Positions 5,271-32,204 of a DNA stretch of 32,436 bases are shown piece after piece; within the stretch, counting starts at the first letter, position 1; every line of letters starts with the position of its first letter. The position numbers and the translations under genes were made by a program. Source of the DNA: a virus; the IMG/VR virus record IMGVR_UViG_3300017991_000287, positions 1 through 32,436 of that record, one strand, 5' to 3'. The notes below the pieces were generated by a model that worked only from the letters and a program-made list of their open reading frames with translations, was not told the origin of the DNA and made no database searches.

Positions 5271-6373
5271 ACCTCATTACCCCAAGCCCCCCACCCATCG
5301 CGCGGCTGTCGGCAATACATTTCTAGTTTATTGTGACCATGAAAAGCCTGCTCAATCCATTTGTAAACACATTCAGGCTTCTTGCTGTGCTTCCCTCTCG
5401 CTTCCCTGAAAACGCTACTAACCCTGAAGTCAGGCGGTGGCGGGCTTGGGTTTCCTTTTGTGGCAACTATCAGTATTTCATGCTGCCCCCTGAACCAGTA
5501 ACCCATGCCAATCTTCTCTTTGTCCCATACAGCCTGGGTCTTGTATGTAAACCCCCATGCCTCCATAACCCTAAATGCCTCAAGAATTTTTGGAGCAGTT
5601 GCCCACAATAACAGAATGCTATGGTCGCTTGAATCTGGCTTGTGGCTGCATATATCTTCTACAGTAGCAGTAGGGTAATTGTTTTCAATGTCGCGCGACT
5701 TTGTCTCGCTGAAGTCATACCTCCACGGCGGGTCAGCCAATATCAAGTCGTAAGGTCCAGCAGAAGGTGCACGTATTGGTGATTCATTAGCCTGTTTGAT
5801 CCTTCTCTCTACCTCCTTTTTCTTCTTCTCCCGCTTGACCTCGGTATAAGCCTGATTGATACTCACCTCGCCAGCCTTCACTGCTTCCTTGGTTTTATCG
5901 TCGGCTTCCTTCCATACCTTATCGGCCATTGCAACCTTGCCTGTGCTCCACCCCAAGTCGGCGGCTATGGCATTCCTTGTGCGCCCAGACTCTGATGATG
6001 ATTCTTGTGTGTCAATATTTGACACACGACGCTCAAGTCTTTCTTCTTCGTGTTTCTCTGTCAGCAACGCTTTCTTTGCCTGTGCCAGCTCAAACTTCCA
6101 GCCGTCTGTCAGGTTGCGCCGGCCACGCTGGTTGTCTATCATCCACACCTTTGCCTCATCCAGGTTGGCGAAGTTTCGCTCCTCTGTGCCGAATGGCAGG
6201 TTGTGCTCAGTGCATATCTGGTATCTGTTGTGTCCGTCAATAATGGTGTTGTCCCACACTACGAGTGCGTCCCTGCACCCCTCGGCCAGTATGTTGGCTT
6301 CTAGCTGCGCGTATTCCTCGCTAGAGAGTGGCGGGATTAGCGCCTGCAATGATTCTTCAATAGTCAGCTGCAT
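5267..6373 (-). CDS. ParB-like domain fused to MT-A70 adenine methyltransferase
   Basis: A 368-residue fusion. Residues 1-90 are a ParB/Srx-like N-terminal domain with the signature IIDGHNRYQI (44-53). A basic, helical, helix-turn-helix-like middle (NAIAADLGWSTGKVAMADKV, about 134-153) and a coiled-coil lysine-rich stretch follow. The C-terminal half is an MT-A70 methyltransferase: catalytic DPPW at 214-217, GYWFRGQHEIL at 291-301 and a C-terminal LEMYCRQPRDGW. The activity expected is S-adenosylmethionine-dependent N6-methylation of adenine in DNA. In a phage this could protect against host restriction or mark its own DNA. Its start overlaps the preceding small gene by 10 nt. Confidence 0.9.
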   Translation of the reverse strand: MQLTIEESLQALIPPLSSEEYAQLEANILAEGCRDALVVWDNTIIDGHNRYQICTEHNLPFGTEERNFANLDEAKVWMIDNQRGRRNLTDGWKFELAQAKKALLTEKHEEERLERRVSNIDTQESSSESGRTRNAIAADLGWSTGKVAMADKVWKEADDKTKEAVKAGEVSINQAYTEVKREKKKKEVERRIKQANESPIRAPSAGPYDLILADPPWRYDFSETKSRDIENNYPTATVEDICSHKPDSSDHSILLLWATAPKILEAFRVMEAWGFTYKTQAVWDKEKIGMGYWFRGQHEILIVATKGNPSPPPPDFRVSSVFREARGKHSKKPECVYKWIEQAFHGHNKLEMYCRQPRDGWGAWGNEV

Positions 6374-9049: not shown

Positions 9050-9532
9050 CTATGCTGTGAGCATGAGCCAGAAGGCCATAGTAGCCACGGCCCCGATTAG
9101 TATTACAAGCGCACGCTGTATTATCGGCATGTGCGCCGGTGGTAGCGCGGGAAACTGCCTGCGCTCGTATTCCTTGCGGCTCCCTGGTGTATCAAAGGCC
9201 GCAATCCAAGCGTGCTTGCAGTCAACGCCGCAGAATGTCAGGTGCCGTCCTTGGGCGGTCGTCCAGGCTTCCGCTTGAGCCGGGGCAATGTAGGTGCCGC
9301 AAGCTGCACATTTGCATTGTCCCTTGGTGGATAAGCCCCGCTGGATACCCCGCGCTCGTGCTTTTCCCGCAGCAGCAATCTCAGCGTGTGTGATGTATTC
9401 GCTGTCGGGGCGGTGGCGCAGATGTCGTCCCACATCAGGCTGATCACCTTGTCCTGCCGCTTGTCCAGGTTGAGCACCATCGCAATGGTGCGCTTGTTTT
9501 CTTTTTTCATCTTGTGTCCTCGCTTCGTCCAT
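9050..9532 (-). CDS. Treble-clef/zinc-finger protein with C-terminal membrane segment
   Basis: This frame reaches 160 residues if it starts at 9532, where AGGAGG lies 5 nt upstream. The convincing part begins near residue 44 (EYITHAEIAAAGKARARGI): two zinc-knuckle pairs CAAC and CGVDC about 30 residues apart, then a single C-terminal hydrophobic helix (about 138-158, ALVILIGAVATMAFWLML). The first 43 residues look like a shadow of the other frame, so an internal start (for example GTG near residue 34) is possible. Likely a small inner-membrane protein with a cytoplasmic zinc finger; function unknown. It overlaps a second plausible gene in another frame. Confidence 0.6.
   Translation of the reverse strand: MDEARTQDEKRKQAHHCDGAQPGQAAGQGDQPDVGRHLRHRPDSEYITHAEIAAAGKARARGIQRGLSTKGQCKCAACGTYIAPAQAEAWTTAQGRHLTFCGVDCKHAWIAAFDTPGSRKEYERRQFPALPPAHMPIIQRALVILIGAVATMAFWLMLTA
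9238..9510 (-). CDS. Overlapping small protein with AT-hook-like tail (90 aa)
   Basis: A 90-residue frame starting at 9510 with GAGGACACAAG upstream. It begins MKKENKRTIAMVLNLDKRQD and has a helical N-terminal half, then a Pro-rich basic end RLKRKPGRPPKDGT whose RKPGRPPK is an AT-hook-like DNA-binding motif. It overlaps the zinc-finger gene for most of its length in a different frame (offset of one base). Both frames look coding over part of the overlap. Either two genes are really nested, or a sequencing frameshift has split one gene. Confidence 0.5.
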   Translation of the reverse strand: MKKENKRTIAMVLNLDKRQDKVISLMWDDICATAPTANTSHTLRLLLREKHERGVSSGAYPPRDNANVQLAAPTLPRLKRKPGRPPKDGT

Positions 9533-24145: not shown

Positions 24146-24388
24146 TTAGTCCTTGTCGGCTTTCGGCTTTGCCTTGGCCTTCGGCGCAGAAACCGGGGGC
24201 ACCGCAAACTTGATACGCTTGCTGCCTGGCCCGCTCTCCATGTAAACGGCTCTGGTGTATTTGCCGTCGCCATTCTTGGTCTTCAGCTCTTTGTAAAGAG
24301 CCTTCTGGTCGCCTGCCTGCATACCAGGAGTCGCCAGCGTTTCCCAAGTGCCGTCAACTTTTTGTGCCATGACTACTGCTAGTCTCAT
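24146..24388 (-). CDS. Small basic-tailed head protein (80 aa)
   Basis: An 80-residue protein, MRLAVVMAQKVDGTWETLAT at its start, ending in an Ala/Lys/Pro tail (SAPKAKAKPKADKD). The ATG at 24388 follows AAGGAG with ideal spacing. It sits between two terminators (24403-24431 and 24105-24138), directly downstream of the capsid gene. A capsid decoration or head-tail protein is likely from position; a basic tail could contact DNA or capsid. No known family recognised. Confidence 0.65.
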   Translation of the reverse strand: MRLAVVMAQKVDGTWETLATPGMQAGDQKALYKELKTKNGDGKYTRAVYMESGPGSKRIKFAVPPVSAPKAKAKPKADKD

Positions 24389-27339: not shown

Positions 27340-27574
27340 TCTCTGCCTCTGTCTCTGCCGCTGGTTCTACACCATCTCCTTCAGCCTTCAGCGTTATGGG
27401 CTTGCGGATGCCATCAGTTGACGCCCAATCTGCTATGACGCCTTTTGACATAACAGGAAGCCCCATCAACTTACGCACCTCTGCCTCATCCTCTTGCTGT
27501 GGCGTAATCACACCAGCTCGAACGCCAACGCCGTATGCGTCCAGAATCGTTTTGACCTGTGTTATGTCAGCCAT
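27329..27574 (-). CDS. Small protein after portal (81 aa)
   Basis: An 81-residue protein, MADITQVKTILDAYGVGVRA at its start, with a segment ITPQQEDEAEVRKLMGLPVM resembling C-terminal parts of portal proteins, then an acidic tail (AETEAESDS). It overlaps the portal's 3' end by 13 nt. It may be a detached portal C-terminal region or a head-completion protein. Confidence 0.6.
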   Translation of the reverse strand: MADITQVKTILDAYGVGVRAGVITPQQEDEAEVRKLMGLPVMSKGVIADWASTDGIRKPITLKAEGDGVEPAAETEAESDS

Positions 27575-29202
27575 TTCTGCAACCCTTCCCCTGTGCCTGC
27601 CGTGGAATTATCATTAGATTCTTCAGCATCCTCATCATCAATGCCTACATCTGCCTGCGCTGGCTGAGTAGAAGCCGCCGACGCGGTGAAGATAAAATCG
27701 CGCCACGATACGTTAGCGCCTGCGTTTGCCTCGTTGATGGCGTTCGCTTGCTCTATCGCCTGCCGGATGTCGGCAGCTTTCTCGCTCAAAACGCCCCTGA
27801 CTTCACGGCCTTGACTCTTAGTAATCGCACTGAGCGATGTTGCGCCCATGTCGTAGCGCTTTTCATCTGCTTTTGCCTGCTTGTCAGGGTCAACCCAATC
27901 AAAAAACGGCAGCGACCACTCAACCCGCCACCATTCGCTACGCCCGTTTTTGTCTACTGGTGCCGGGGGCAAGTCGCCTTCCTTGATAGCCTTGGCAATA
28001 CGCCAGTTCCATAGCGGCTGCAAAAACACCTTTATCACCCAATCGTGCCACTCGGTGAATATGTGCTTGCTGTGAATAAGCGCCGCACGCTGGCTGCTGA
28101 AGCTGCCCTCGGTGAAAATAAGCATCAGAAACTCGTAAGGAATATCCAAACAGGCTGCGATGGCCTGAAGCTCGTGCTTCATGTAGTCAACATATTCACG
28201 GCTCGGCGTCTTGCCTTCAAAGGCTTCCATTTCCTCGTCAACGCCGATGTTGTGGACGCGACCCCAATCCTGCTTTTCTACGCGCTGCTGGTCTTTGCCG
28301 TCGCTGTTTGTCTTGGTGTATGCTCCGCGCCCGCGCTGGTTAGGCAGAATCTTCCTAACCTTGCGGACAAACTGCTGCATTGCGTCCAGCTTGATTTTGT
28401 TGAGCACATTCTCGTCGGTTTCGTCGTAATCGCGCAGCTTGGCTACTGCTGGCGCGAGGCGGCTAACCCCGCGCACCTGGTCTATGCGGTCAGGCTCAAA
28501 GCAGAAAAGCATGTTTTCTTTCCGCACAAACTGGCTGCGGCTCTTGTCTACGGCCCCGCCTTGGCTGCGCGGACATACAAAATAGCCCGTCAGTATGCCG
28601 CCCTTGGTGCGCCGAATACCCTGTGTAATGCTTTCATCTGCTGCAAACTTCTGTGGGGTGGCTATCAGTGCGCTCTCTACGGGCTGAATCTGCCCATTCT
28701 GCAACAGGATAAAACCGCAATCCCCGTCTATCATGCGGTGGCTGATAACCATTTTCTGAAGCGTTACCAAGTCAACACCCGCTAGCTGCCGGTGGTCGCA
28801 AGTCTTGGAATATATATCATTCCACCAGTTTTCGGCCCGCTGGTTCCATGCTTCGTCCCTGGTATGCGCCTGCGGCTTTATGCCTTTCCAAACGGCATAT
28901 TCGATGAATCTGTTGACCGCACCGCGCACAATCTCGTTGTTTCTGTACAAGTCGCGGCATTCCAGCCTTAGTGTGTCCCGGTCATATTCGCCAAGCGCAA
29001 ACTCTTCTGTGCCCACCAGCGCTCGCTGCCATGCCTGATAGGTGCGGCGCCGGGTGTCGATTACTCCAGCGTAAGCGGTGCCTGGCCCGTACATCATCGG
29101 GCTGCCTTGCGCTTCCTGTATAGCGGACTTGTCAGCTATTCGCCTGAATGCGTAGCCGGGTGCCACTTCCACAAGAAACTTGTCAAGTGCGCTTAGCTTC
29201 AT
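27562..29202 (-). CDS. Portal protein, lambda family
   Basis: A 546-residue portal protein of the lambda B/PF05136 family. Typical phrases include RNNEIVRGAVNRFIEYAVWK, GFILLQNGQIQPVES, AFEGKTPSREYVDYMKHELQ and AACLDIPYEFLMLIFTEGSF. Twelve copies would form the ring at the capsid vertex through which DNA is packaged. It follows the gpW/DUF6148-like gene with a 4-nt overlap. The C-terminus is Asp/Glu-rich (DDEDAEESND). Confidence 0.92.
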   Translation of the reverse strand: MKLSALDKFLVEVAPGYAFRRIADKSAIQEAQGSPMMYGPGTAYAGVIDTRRRTYQAWQRALVGTEEFALGEYDRDTLRLECRDLYRNNEIVRGAVNRFIEYAVWKGIKPQAHTRDEAWNQRAENWWNDIYSKTCDHRQLAGVDLVTLQKMVISHRMIDGDCGFILLQNGQIQPVESALIATPQKFAADESITQGIRRTKGGILTGYFVCPRSQGGAVDKSRSQFVRKENMLFCFEPDRIDQVRGVSRLAPAVAKLRDYDETDENVLNKIKLDAMQQFVRKVRKILPNQRGRGAYTKTNSDGKDQQRVEKQDWGRVHNIGVDEEMEAFEGKTPSREYVDYMKHELQAIAACLDIPYEFLMLIFTEGSFSSQRAALIHSKHIFTEWHDWVIKVFLQPLWNWRIAKAIKEGDLPPAPVDKNGRSEWWRVEWSLPFFDWVDPDKQAKADEKRYDMGATSLSAITKSQGREVRGVLSEKAADIRQAIEQANAINEANAGANVSWRDFIFTASAASTQPAQADVGIDDEDAEESNDNSTAGTGEGLQKWLT

Positions 29203-29495
29203 GGCGTGGCAATCTCCGTGTTAGCGTCTGCCAGCGTCACGGTGCCGTAAACCAACTCGGATAGCTGGTTCTGAAGGTCGTTGATTAGTGCTGTGCCCGC
29301 GTTGGGATCACGCCGAGTCACAGTGCGATTGGTTATTGTATAGCTTTGGATTTCATCGCTTGAAAGCTTGGTCTGCGCGGTGCGTGCCGCAATGTACTGG
29401 TCAAGTATGTAGGTTGCTTCTGCTTTCAGAAGCGCGTTAGAGATTTTGGCAATCTCTGTCTCCCAAGCCGACTTCACATCGTCTATTGCTGCCAT
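29199..29495 (-). CDS. Head-tail joining protein (DUF6148/gpW-like)
   Basis: A 98-residue helical protein with a small beta part (SYTITNRTVTRRDPNAGTAL), in the order of the gpW/DUF6148-like head-tail joining family, and directly upstream of the portal as lambda W is. It would sit below the portal and help seal the packaged head. The ribosome site GGGGA precedes the ATG. Its promoter lies at 29534-29562. Confidence 0.75.
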   Translation of the reverse strand: MAAIDDVKSAWETEIAKISNALLKAEATYILDQYIAARTAQTKLSSDEIQSYTITNRTVTRRDPNAGTALINDLQNQLSELVYGTVTLADANTEIATP

Positions 29496-29507
29496 ATATT
29501 CCCCACG

Positions 29508-29590
29508 GGTAAACTTTTGTTGACGTCACGGGTAGCGTAGTCAGCTTTTGTTGACGTGTCAAGCGGGGGTGTAAACTTTTTTTGACATTG
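29508..29590. repeat. Three operator-like repeats at exact 31-bp spacing
   Basis: The motif CTTTTGTTGAC (third copy CTTTTTTTGAC) starts at 29514, 29545 and 29576 on the plus strand, a period of exactly 31 bp, about three helical turns. Copies 1 and 3 share a preceding GTAAA. The middle copy lies within the -35/spacer of the promoter at 29534-29562, copy 1 near its transcription start, copy 3 upstream. This looks like a cooperative binding array for a phage regulator. Confidence 0.6.
29534..29562 (-). promoter_or_regulatory. Late promoter for portal/head operon
   Basis: Minus strand TTGACA (29562-29557, a perfect -35), a 17-bp spacer and TACGCT (29539-29534). The expected start is near 29527, upstream of the head joining gene at 29495. 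It is preceded by the terminator at 29598-29627 and overlapped by the 31-bp-spaced repeats, so it starts a separately controlled transcript. Confidence 0.55.
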
Positions 29591-29597
29591 TGGGCAC

Positions 29598-29627
29598 AAA
29601 AAAGCCCCCGCCGGTTAGGGCAGGGGC
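29598..29627 (-). terminator. Strong intrinsic terminator after zinc-ribbon moron
   Basis: The minus strand reads GCCCCTGCC (29627-29619), a 6-nt loop CTAACC, GGCGGGGGC (29612-29604), then TTTTTT (29603-29598). The 9-bp stem has one T-G pair. It ends the monocistronic zinc-ribbon gene. Confidence 0.85.
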
Positions 29628-29645
29628 AGGGGGGGGTGATTGGCT

Positions 29646-29912
29646 CTATTTACCGCTGAGCTTGTTTAGCAGCGACTTCAGCCGTGATTCGCGCTCTTGC
29701 TTATCCTTGGGTGCGCCCTCTGGCACTATGCCAAACTTGGCGCTGCACTCTGGGCAGAATGTTAGGTCAACCTTGGACTCCCAAAAGACGCCATAACAGT
29801 ATGCATCTTTGCCGACGCCAACAATGCCCGCGTTCCATCCTTTCGGAAAACCGCCGCCTGTTTCTTCCACCTTGCCGCAATCGTCGCATGTGTATGTTGT
29901 TTTGCTTCCCAT
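29646..29912 (-). CDS. Zinc-ribbon moron protein (88 aa)
   Basis: An 88-residue protein. The ATG at 29912 follows AGGAGGCAGCAC; an upstream ATG at 29990 overlaps the promoter and adds a basic non-conserved stretch. Two knuckles, CDDC (near residue 9) and CPEC (near 52), form a zinc ribbon around a Gly-rich middle (GGGFPKGWNAGIVGVGKDAY). It lies between terminase and portal with its own promoter (29962-29990) and terminator (29598-29627): the definition of a moron. Such genes often alter host behaviour; the function here is unknown. Confidence 0.75.
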   Translation of the reverse strand: MGSKTTYTCDDCGKVEETGGGFPKGWNAGIVGVGKDAYCYGVFWESKVDLTFCPECSAKFGIVPEGAPKDKQERESRLKSLLNKLSGK

Positions 29913-29961
29913 GTGCTGCCTCCTTTTGGTTTTGGTCTTCTGCCCGTGTCTGTTGCGTGGG

Positions 29962-29990
29962 AATATCGCACACCACGCGCCAACCGTCAA
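29962..29990 (-). promoter_or_regulatory. Sigma70-like promoter of the moron gene
   Basis: Minus strand TTGACG (29990-29985), 17-bp spacer, GATATT (29967-29962), with an AT-rich AATAAATAG just upstream. The -35 box lies immediately after the terminase stop. Expected start near 29955, 40 bp before the ATG at 29912. Confidence 0.55.
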
Positions 29991-29994
29991 CTAT

Positions 29995-31743
29995 TTATTC
30001 GACGCTCAATGTCGTGTGAAGCATACCGTCAATCGTCGCAGCCAGCACTTGAAGCACCTCGCAATCCCACAAGTGGTTGTTCGGGTGCCCGCGCTTGGTC
30101 TGCCACTTCCCGTCAACACGCTCCTCACTGGCTACCTGCTTGCAGTATTTTTCCTCAATGCCCCGATAAACGTACCACTTCCGCAAGTGCTCGCCACGCA
30201 ACATCTGCAATGCTATGCTCTTGAATATGTCAGTGTGAAATGTCACCTGTGCAATGCTGGTTTCACCCTGCCCCATCTTGCCCTCAAACGGGTCAACAAC
30301 ACCCTGCTTGAATGGCAGCGCTATCTGCTCGCTGCCGATGGTCGGCATCCATTGCCACTGCAAGCAAGCCTCGTATACTTCCATCTTGCGGTCGCTGTAC
30401 CCATTGTCAACGTATACCAGGCTGGCGTTATGCGTCTGGTCGCATTCACGCAAGTCGTCCAGCAGCACGCCATATCCCCAATCGAGCAAGCCCGAATCAC
30501 CGCCCTCTATCCACTCACGCGCAACCCACCAGTGGTGCCCCTTCTGCATGTCTGCGGTGACATAGACGGCCTTCTCTTTGGGCAGCCATATCTGGAAGTC
30601 TGGCCCTGTGCTTATTAGCTGGCCCTTGCCGTAATCTGCCTGGCGCTCGGCCACTATCCCCTCTGGCGTACTTTCACGCTGGTGGTGCCACTTCTCGGCC
30701 AGGTGCTCGTACATGAACACCTTGAGCTGCTGCGGCCCGCCGTGTTTAGCACGCAGAAACGCCTCGGCTATCGCCCCGAAATCGCCCGACTTGAATGGCA
30801 TGTAGAATGAGCTTATGTGATAGCTACGCCGCCAGCTTGCCGCCTTTTCGTTGGTTGCCACCCATTTGCCGCCCCTAACCACGGCCATGCGCTCGCTATT
30901 CTCAATGCGTGTACCGTCAGGGGTTACATAGTGCGCTGAATCCCGCACCTTCTGCCAGTCGTAGCTGCCATCTTCGCGCTTGCAGTCTTCCCACTTCAGC
31001 CCGTAGCTGCTTGTCTCTGTGCCCATCTCGAAAGCAAAGAGGTTGCCCGTCTGCGGATCTTTCATCATCCATTTGCGCTGGTCGCCCGCCTCGTATTCCA
31101 CAAATATCGGGTCGTCCTCGCTGCTCTGCTTCATGGTCGGGTCAGGGCTGCTTATCCAAACAATATGCGAGAAGGGCACGGTGTCGCAGCGCTTCCGAAT
31201 CATGCCGGGGGTCAGCCCTGGATACGTTGAAAACTCGTCTGCGATTATCAATGACCACGGGTTACGCTTGAAGGCCATCTTGTTTTTCGGCCACGCCGCC
31301 GCCACGGTCATGTCTGCGAAGTCTACCCGCCCCTCGACCTCACGCGCCTTCCGCAGTTTGGCAGCAGTAGCAGCGCAGCAGCCCAGCCCGCCGACAATCC
31401 TGCTCTTGAAGTCTTCCTCTGCCGCCTTCTGGTCGCCCCACACATAAAGTACCCGCCTCGGTGCCACGGCCACGGCGTACCTTATCGGGTTGAGGCATAC
31501 ATTCTCGGTTCCCCCGGCCTGCGAGCACTTCAAGATGGCCTGCTCACGCACGTTGGGGTTGAAGCAGTTTTCCGCTGGCTCTTTCCAGAAGGGCAGCAGG
31601 TCTGGGTCGTAGAAGCCCTTATATTCTGTCGGGTAGGCGGGGTTTAGCGCGAAGTCAACATTTGTTGACGCCCACTCCCAAACGGGCTGCTCATCTATCA
31701 CCGAAAGGCCGGTGCAGATAATATCTATTGCTGACTGGCGCAT
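29995..31743 (-). CDS. Terminase large subunit, GpA family
   Basis: A 582-residue DNA-packaging motor and nuclease. The ATG at 31743 has GGCGGGGAGA upstream; an ATG at 31848 would lie inside the small subunit gene. The ATPase domain shows a lambda-gpA-like deviant Walker A, KCSQAGGTE (72-80), in which the lysine leads the loop as in lambda KSARVGYS, and Walker B LIIADE (165-170). The nuclease domain is marked by VYVTADMQKGHHWWVAREW and LVYVDNGYSDRKMEVY with acidic metal ligands. Overlaps the small subunit gene by 19 nt. It cuts concatemeric DNA and drives it into the procapsid. Confidence 0.92.
   Translation of the reverse strand: MRQSAIDIICTGLSVIDEQPVWEWASTNVDFALNPAYPTEYKGFYDPDLLPFWKEPAENCFNPNVREQAILKCSQAGGTENVCLNPIRYAVAVAPRRVLYVWGDQKAAEEDFKSRIVGGLGCCAATAAKLRKAREVEGRVDFADMTVAAAWPKNKMAFKRNPWSLIIADEFSTYPGLTPGMIRKRCDTVPFSHIVWISSPDPTMKQSSEDDPIFVEYEAGDQRKWMMKDPQTGNLFAFEMGTETSSYGLKWEDCKREDGSYDWQKVRDSAHYVTPDGTRIENSERMAVVRGGKWVATNEKAASWRRSYHISSFYMPFKSGDFGAIAEAFLRAKHGGPQQLKVFMYEHLAEKWHHQRESTPEGIVAERQADYGKGQLISTGPDFQIWLPKEKAVYVTADMQKGHHWWVAREWIEGGDSGLLDWGYGVLLDDLRECDQTHNASLVYVDNGYSDRKMEVYEACLQWQWMPTIGSEQIALPFKQGVVDPFEGKMGQGETSIAQVTFHTDIFKSIALQMLRGEHLRKWYVYRGIEEKYCKQVASEERVDGKWQTKRGHPNNHLWDCEVLQVLAATIDGMLHTTLSVE
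31654..31669. other. Short palindrome GTCAACA-TT-TGTTGAC inside terminase gene
   Basis: A 7-bp inverted repeat with a 2-bp centre, sharing the TTGAC element of the 31-bp-spaced array near 29514-29590. It lies in coding sequence of the large terminase (codons for A-S-T-N-V-D-F-A), so it may be a chance match or a distant auxiliary site for the same regulator. Confidence 0.3.
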
Positions 31744-32204
31744 TCTCCCCGCCTTTGTACGGCCTCGGTTGTCCACCGCTTCACCCTGTCGCGCAGCTCT
31801 TTGGCTTTCTCGACCTGTGCAGCATCTCTTGTCTCGACCATCACCCACTGCACAAATTCCTCAAGTGCCCCAGCCAGTACGCCGCAAAACTCTAGCAAAT
31901 CAGCGTGGTATTCTTCCAGTGGTATCAGCCGATCCTCTATCTGGTCGATTTTCACCTGGTACATCTTGCACTCAAGCTCTAGCTTCCTGCGCTTCAAGTC
32001 AGCATTGGCACCAGTGACCTCTTCCTTCTGTATCTCTTTATAGTCCTGTATGAACTTGCTGCAAGCGGCCACGTCCCACCCCCGGCCAGTCTTCATCGGG
32101 AAGCCTTCTTTTTCCAGCCAGCTCTTATACAATGCCTGCCGAGTTATCTCTAGAGCCTCGGCTAGCTCGGTTGTCGTTTTCGCAAACTGCTTCACCACCG
32201 TCAC
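31725..32204 (-). CDS. Terminase small subunit (Nu1-like)
   Basis: A 159-residue protein with an N-terminal helix-turn-helix (TTELAEALEITRQALYKSWL, 11-30, then a GFPMKTGRGWDV wing as in lambda Nu1-like proteins) and a C-terminal helical oligomerisation region (LKRRKLELECKMYQVKIDQI). It recognises the packaging start site and recruits the large subunit, next gene in the same operon. Start overlaps the preceding small gene by 4 nt. Confidence 0.85.
   Translation of the reverse strand: MTVVKQFAKTTTELAEALEITRQALYKSWLEKEGFPMKTGRGWDVAACSKFIQDYKEIQKEEVTGANADLKRRKLELECKMYQVKIDQIEDRLIPLEEYHADLLEFCGVLAGALEEFVQWVMVETRDAAQVEKAKELRDRVKRWTTEAVQRRGECASQQ

Follow-up and report, generated by a model that had tools for sequence, protein, structure and literature searches.

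The closest described systems to the locus analyzed here are found among the operators and late promoters of other phages. In the lambda-type triplets (OR1-3, OL1-3), the operators are spaced about 23-24 bp apart, versus 31 bp in the present array. Ogr-type activators of P2-type phages act from about -55 on sites of the form TGT-N12-ACA, and the stoperators of mycobacteriophage L5 are repressor sites outside the main switch that contain TGTCAA. Sites serving DNA packaging are usually located at terS, the terminase small subunit gene. Three operators forming a lambda-type triplet are described for Staphylococcus phage phi11 (PMC3991615).

The window, i.e. the whole stretch of 32,436 bases that we analyzed, is a complete IMG/VR record of an uncultured bacterial virus, which has no end repeats and represents a fragment. 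Its recognizable genes are all on the minus strand: the terS-position gene, terL, a small zinc-ribbon ORF, adaptor, portal, protease, major capsid protein, tail and replication genes. Three operator-like dyads, promoter-like hexamers and an intrinsic terminator lie between terL and the adaptor gene, as listed below.

29995..31740, minus strand: terminase large subunit gene (terL); phrog_15, E 7e-45 for the longer ORF 29995-31848
29646..29915, minus strand: small zinc-ribbon ORF flanked by terL and the terminator; cargo-like, unmatched in relatives
29597..29627, minus strand: intrinsic terminator; stem 29627-29604, then TTTTTTG
29571..29586, minus strand: operator-like dyad 3, GTCAAAAAAAGTTTAC in the minus-strand reading; upstream, about -44 to -59
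29557..29562, minus strand: predicted -35 element TTGACA, perfect, between dyads 2 and 3
29540..29555, minus strand: operator-like dyad 2, GTCAACAAAAGCTGAC; occupies the -35/-10 spacer
29534..29539, minus strand: predicted -10 element TACGCT, 3/6 to consensus; spacer 17 bp
29509..29524, minus strand: operator-like dyad 1, GTCAACAAAAGTTTAC; about +4 to +19
29199..29495, minus strand: head-tail adaptor gene, start codon at 29495; phrog_118, E 7.5e-5; conserved in relatives, first after the promoter
27562..29202, minus strand: portal gene; phrog_21, E 4e-60

The array unit is a 16-nt imperfect dyad, GTMARC-N4-KTTKAC, which reads as the GTCAAC-AAAA-GTTTAC type on the minus strand, with 8 or 10 of the 16 positions self-complementary in each copy. 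The first-pass annotation had reported plus-strand words three helix turns apart, and these are present as it described them: CTTTTGTTGAC at 29514 and 29545 and CTTTTTTTGAC at 29576, in exact 31-bp steps (31/10.5 = 2.95 turns), with both dyad-to-dyad distances likewise exactly 31 bp. The repeats thus exist, but their unit had been given on the plus strand, whereas the head genes are all encoded on the opposite strand. We scanned the window for 16-mers repeated three times at a constant step of 18-60 bp, allowing no more than 3 mismatches. Apart from an 18-bp coding array at 1-200, the triple at 29509-29586 was the sole hit, and none turned up in 300 order-2 Markov sequences; the array is more similar and more regular than chance, as expected of operators for a dimeric repressor. 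Folding of the repeats, as a check for a role at the RNA level, gave no stable hairpins. The 18-bp tandem array at 1-200 belongs to the minus-strand ORF 3-410, truncated at the window end, whose six-residue repeats (e.g. GGNVIA and GGSVEA) have the look of a beta-helix-type repeat protein.

Since the head genes are all on the minus strand, the usable promoter should be the minus-strand TTGACA-17-TACGCT, with a probable transcription start near 29527 on that strand. This predicted promoter overlaps the dyads and points toward the adaptor, portal, protease and major capsid protein genes, in line with the earlier proposal of a promoter for the head operon under the repeats. It had been called a perfect TTGACA promoter, which is accurate for the -35 element only, as the -10 element TACGCT is weak. 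The chance of TTGACA occurring in the gap is 0.03, and TTGACA-N16-18-TANNNT appears on the coding strand in 0.06% of the gap shuffles (0.0006). We rejected the plus-strand TTGACA within dyad 3 (29582-29587) as a promoter, which has no -10 element and faces the terminator, away from the operon. The terminator has a strong RNA fold (-20.4 kcal/mol, z -3.5) and is placed between the dyad array and the zinc-ribbon ORF, insulating the promoter from that ORF and from terL. An Rfam search of 29100-30100 gave no match. The zinc-ribbon region (29646-29990) has a promoter-like site of its own at 29990, TTGACG-17-GATATT preceded by TG, plus the terminator.

A pattern built from the sites matches the window at exactly the three dyads and at 31654; other half-matches, e.g. 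at 24353, score sharply lower and were discarded. The search for further copies returned the palindrome GTCAACATTTGTTGAC at 31654-31669, which the first-pass annotation had considered related, and none at other promoters. The palindrome exists but lies inside terL, where it is better explained as coding sequence. Its right half encodes N-V-D of TerL, within the codons of WASTNVDF, and these three residues are invariant across five aligned TerL proteins, while its left half is missing in the DNA of the two relatives inspected. We therefore rejected it as a fourth operator and regard it as a probable coincidence.

Relatives were gathered by TerL and portal searches, and they share the terL-adaptor-portal gene order. 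We compared the 300 bp directly upstream of the adaptor gene in 10 relatives. Sense-strand TTGACA occurs in four of them (L001, L002, L055 and L056) versus 0.67 expected (P=0.0018), and antisense TTGACA in none of the 10. Judged from these 10 relatives, sense-strand TTGACA in the terL-adaptor gap is a trait of the phage group. In some relatives (L002, L056 and L062) a terminator immediately precedes the adaptor gene. Neither a triple nor a 6-N4-6 dyad was found in the matching gap of the relatives found, whose structural proteins are 41-58% identical. Lack of conservation in related phages had been named at the outset as half of what would speak against the operators, and the repeats are indeed absent from every relative found; operators are expected to diverge at 41-58% protein identity. 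The promoter position seems to be shared and the dyads lineage-specific, which would fit differing repressor specificities but also a dispensable feature. The inserts in the gap differ from relative to relative, which suggests a hot spot for cargo. In two relatives (L002:2130-2297 and L056:9393-9509) a promoter or -35 element and a leader of ~100-150 nt precede a strong terminator that lies directly ahead of the adaptor gene, a layout similar to lambda pR'-tR' antitermination. DNA-level matches to known phages cover 19-38% of the query among the matches listed, nearly all over the terminator part, and searches of bacterial genomes with portal and TerL gave no relatives.

We also scanned IMG/VR for pairs of such dyads separated by 5-35 bp, which recovered L069/L068 and L070. 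L069 is an unrelated phage of 32% G+C whose three similar dyads are flanked by a terminator and terS; as it was selected by the motif itself, only the position of its dyads counts as independent evidence. There may be a small chance that the window phage and L069, with their differing G+C, share a late module consisting of a terminator, three GTMAAM-W4-KTTKAC dyads, a promoter and the first packaging or head gene, under one undescribed regulator family. A looser scan gave 31 stretches, which we set aside, as most fall within genes or homologous AT-rich contigs. The intergenic arrays of L010, L009, L070 and L093 were not retained as parallels either, as they are not clearly late promoters. In L009 (9922-9968), the dyads GTAAACGATTGTTTAC and GTCAACGATTGTTTAC precede a ParB-like gene and are spaced 31 bp apart. 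L010 has four GTAAAC...TTTGAC-type sites (5532-5625) at a spacing of 23-31 bp, some 450 bp ahead of a terS-like gene adjoining an integrase gene.

No repressor or HTH regulator was recognized among the selected ORFs scanned in the window, except for weak HTH matches in the terS-position gene, and neither the zinc-ribbon ORF nor the other ORFs scanned in the fragment matched the Ogr/Delta family. ORF 9238-9510 (minus strand, 90 aa), which overlaps another ORF, has an N-terminus that may be ribbon-helix-helix, carries an AT-hook-like tail (KRKPGRPPKDG) and is a candidate DNA-binding protein. A Pfam search of this ORF gave no match, and the single-sequence folds of it and of the terS-position ORF are of low confidence (mean pLDDT 52-53). 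In the literature, no match for GTCAAC operators was seen among the titles and abstracts listed.

Our analysis suggests, with about an even chance of being right, that a dimeric DNA-binding protein uses the dyads as operators on a sigma-70 promoter of the head operon, this protein most likely being a repressor encoded elsewhere in the phage or by the host. As the window is a fragment, the repressor gene could be in another part of the phage. In favor of this reading are the unique triple with its dyad symmetry, the hexamers on the coding strand, the terminator, the sense-strand TTGACA of the relatives and the dyad position in L069; the dyad-free relatives, the search of selected ORFs for a regulator and the want of further sites at promoters speak against it. 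A dimer bound at dyad 2 would occupy the spacer of the two hexamers and keep RNA polymerase off, and dimers on dyads 1 and 3, on the same face and three turns to either side, may reinforce the repression through cooperative interactions. Loss of the repressor would then switch the promoter on, and the head proteins would be made. The terminator would block read-through from terL, and the head proteins would then come from their own promoter.

The weak -10 element means that activation fits as well: a phage late activator sitting on the upstream dyad, whose centre is at about -51, could recruit the polymerase. The adjacent small zinc-ribbon gene and the TGT-N12-ACA form of dyad 3 on the plus strand agree with this idea. 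We nevertheless consider it unlikely, as the -35 element is perfect, two of the three dyads occupy the spacer and the transcript start, which is typical of repression, only the upstream one of the three sites matches TGT-N12-ACA near -55, dyads 1 and 2 failing to do so, and the neighboring zinc-ribbon ORF is without an Ogr/Delta family match. It is improbable that the repeats serve as replication iterons or bind the terminase small subunit as packaging or cosB-like sites, with an incidental promoter overlap. Three repeats near terminase genes do resemble cosB R sites, the terS-position gene has its weak HTH matches, an O-like replication initiator is encoded, and the dyads in L069 are directly before terS. 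But the array is not beside terS, the terS-position gene being ~2.2 kb away; it is missing in relatives with TerL 47-50% identical, shows no GC-skew switch, and is 25 kb from the initiator gene.

The finding of no phage regulator, together with similar dyad arrays in unrelated mobile elements, could mean that the sites serve a host regulator through which the phage senses the host state. This is very doubtful, because bacterial genomes held no relative from which to identify the host and no known motif was matched. Just as doubtful is a functionless array left by duplication or chance, for which one may cite the relatives without the array and the fairly A/T-rich core. Against it stand the zero count in 300 random sequences and the 15-bp linkers, which differ from each other while the dyads agree, and this argues against a fresh duplication.

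If the sites act as operators, the head genes in this uncultured phage group would be controlled directly at their own promoter, and not solely through early genes or an antiterminator. The relatives appear to swap promoters, terminators and small genes in the terL-adaptor gap, which could be useful for studying the evolution of late control.

Compared with the known systems, the array has the upstream dyad (centre about -51) in common with P2-type late promoters, but has additional sites in the spacer and at the transcript start, a perfect -35 element and no Ogr homologue found. The lambda cosB R sites and O-protein iterons likewise consist of three or more phage repeats of similar length, whereas this array is distant from terS and the initiator gene and overlaps a promoter. 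The L5 stoperators are asymmetric 13-mers scattered genome-wide, unlike the three dyads at one promoter here. The lambda-type triplets also place three similar near-palindromes of ~16-17 bp over a sigma-70 promoter in a way suited to dimers on one face. Those are between cI and cro, while the present ones are in the terL-adaptor gap, at the head-operon promoter and with no adjoining repressor gene. On the operator reading, the array is an ordinary kind of control element in a less usual place.
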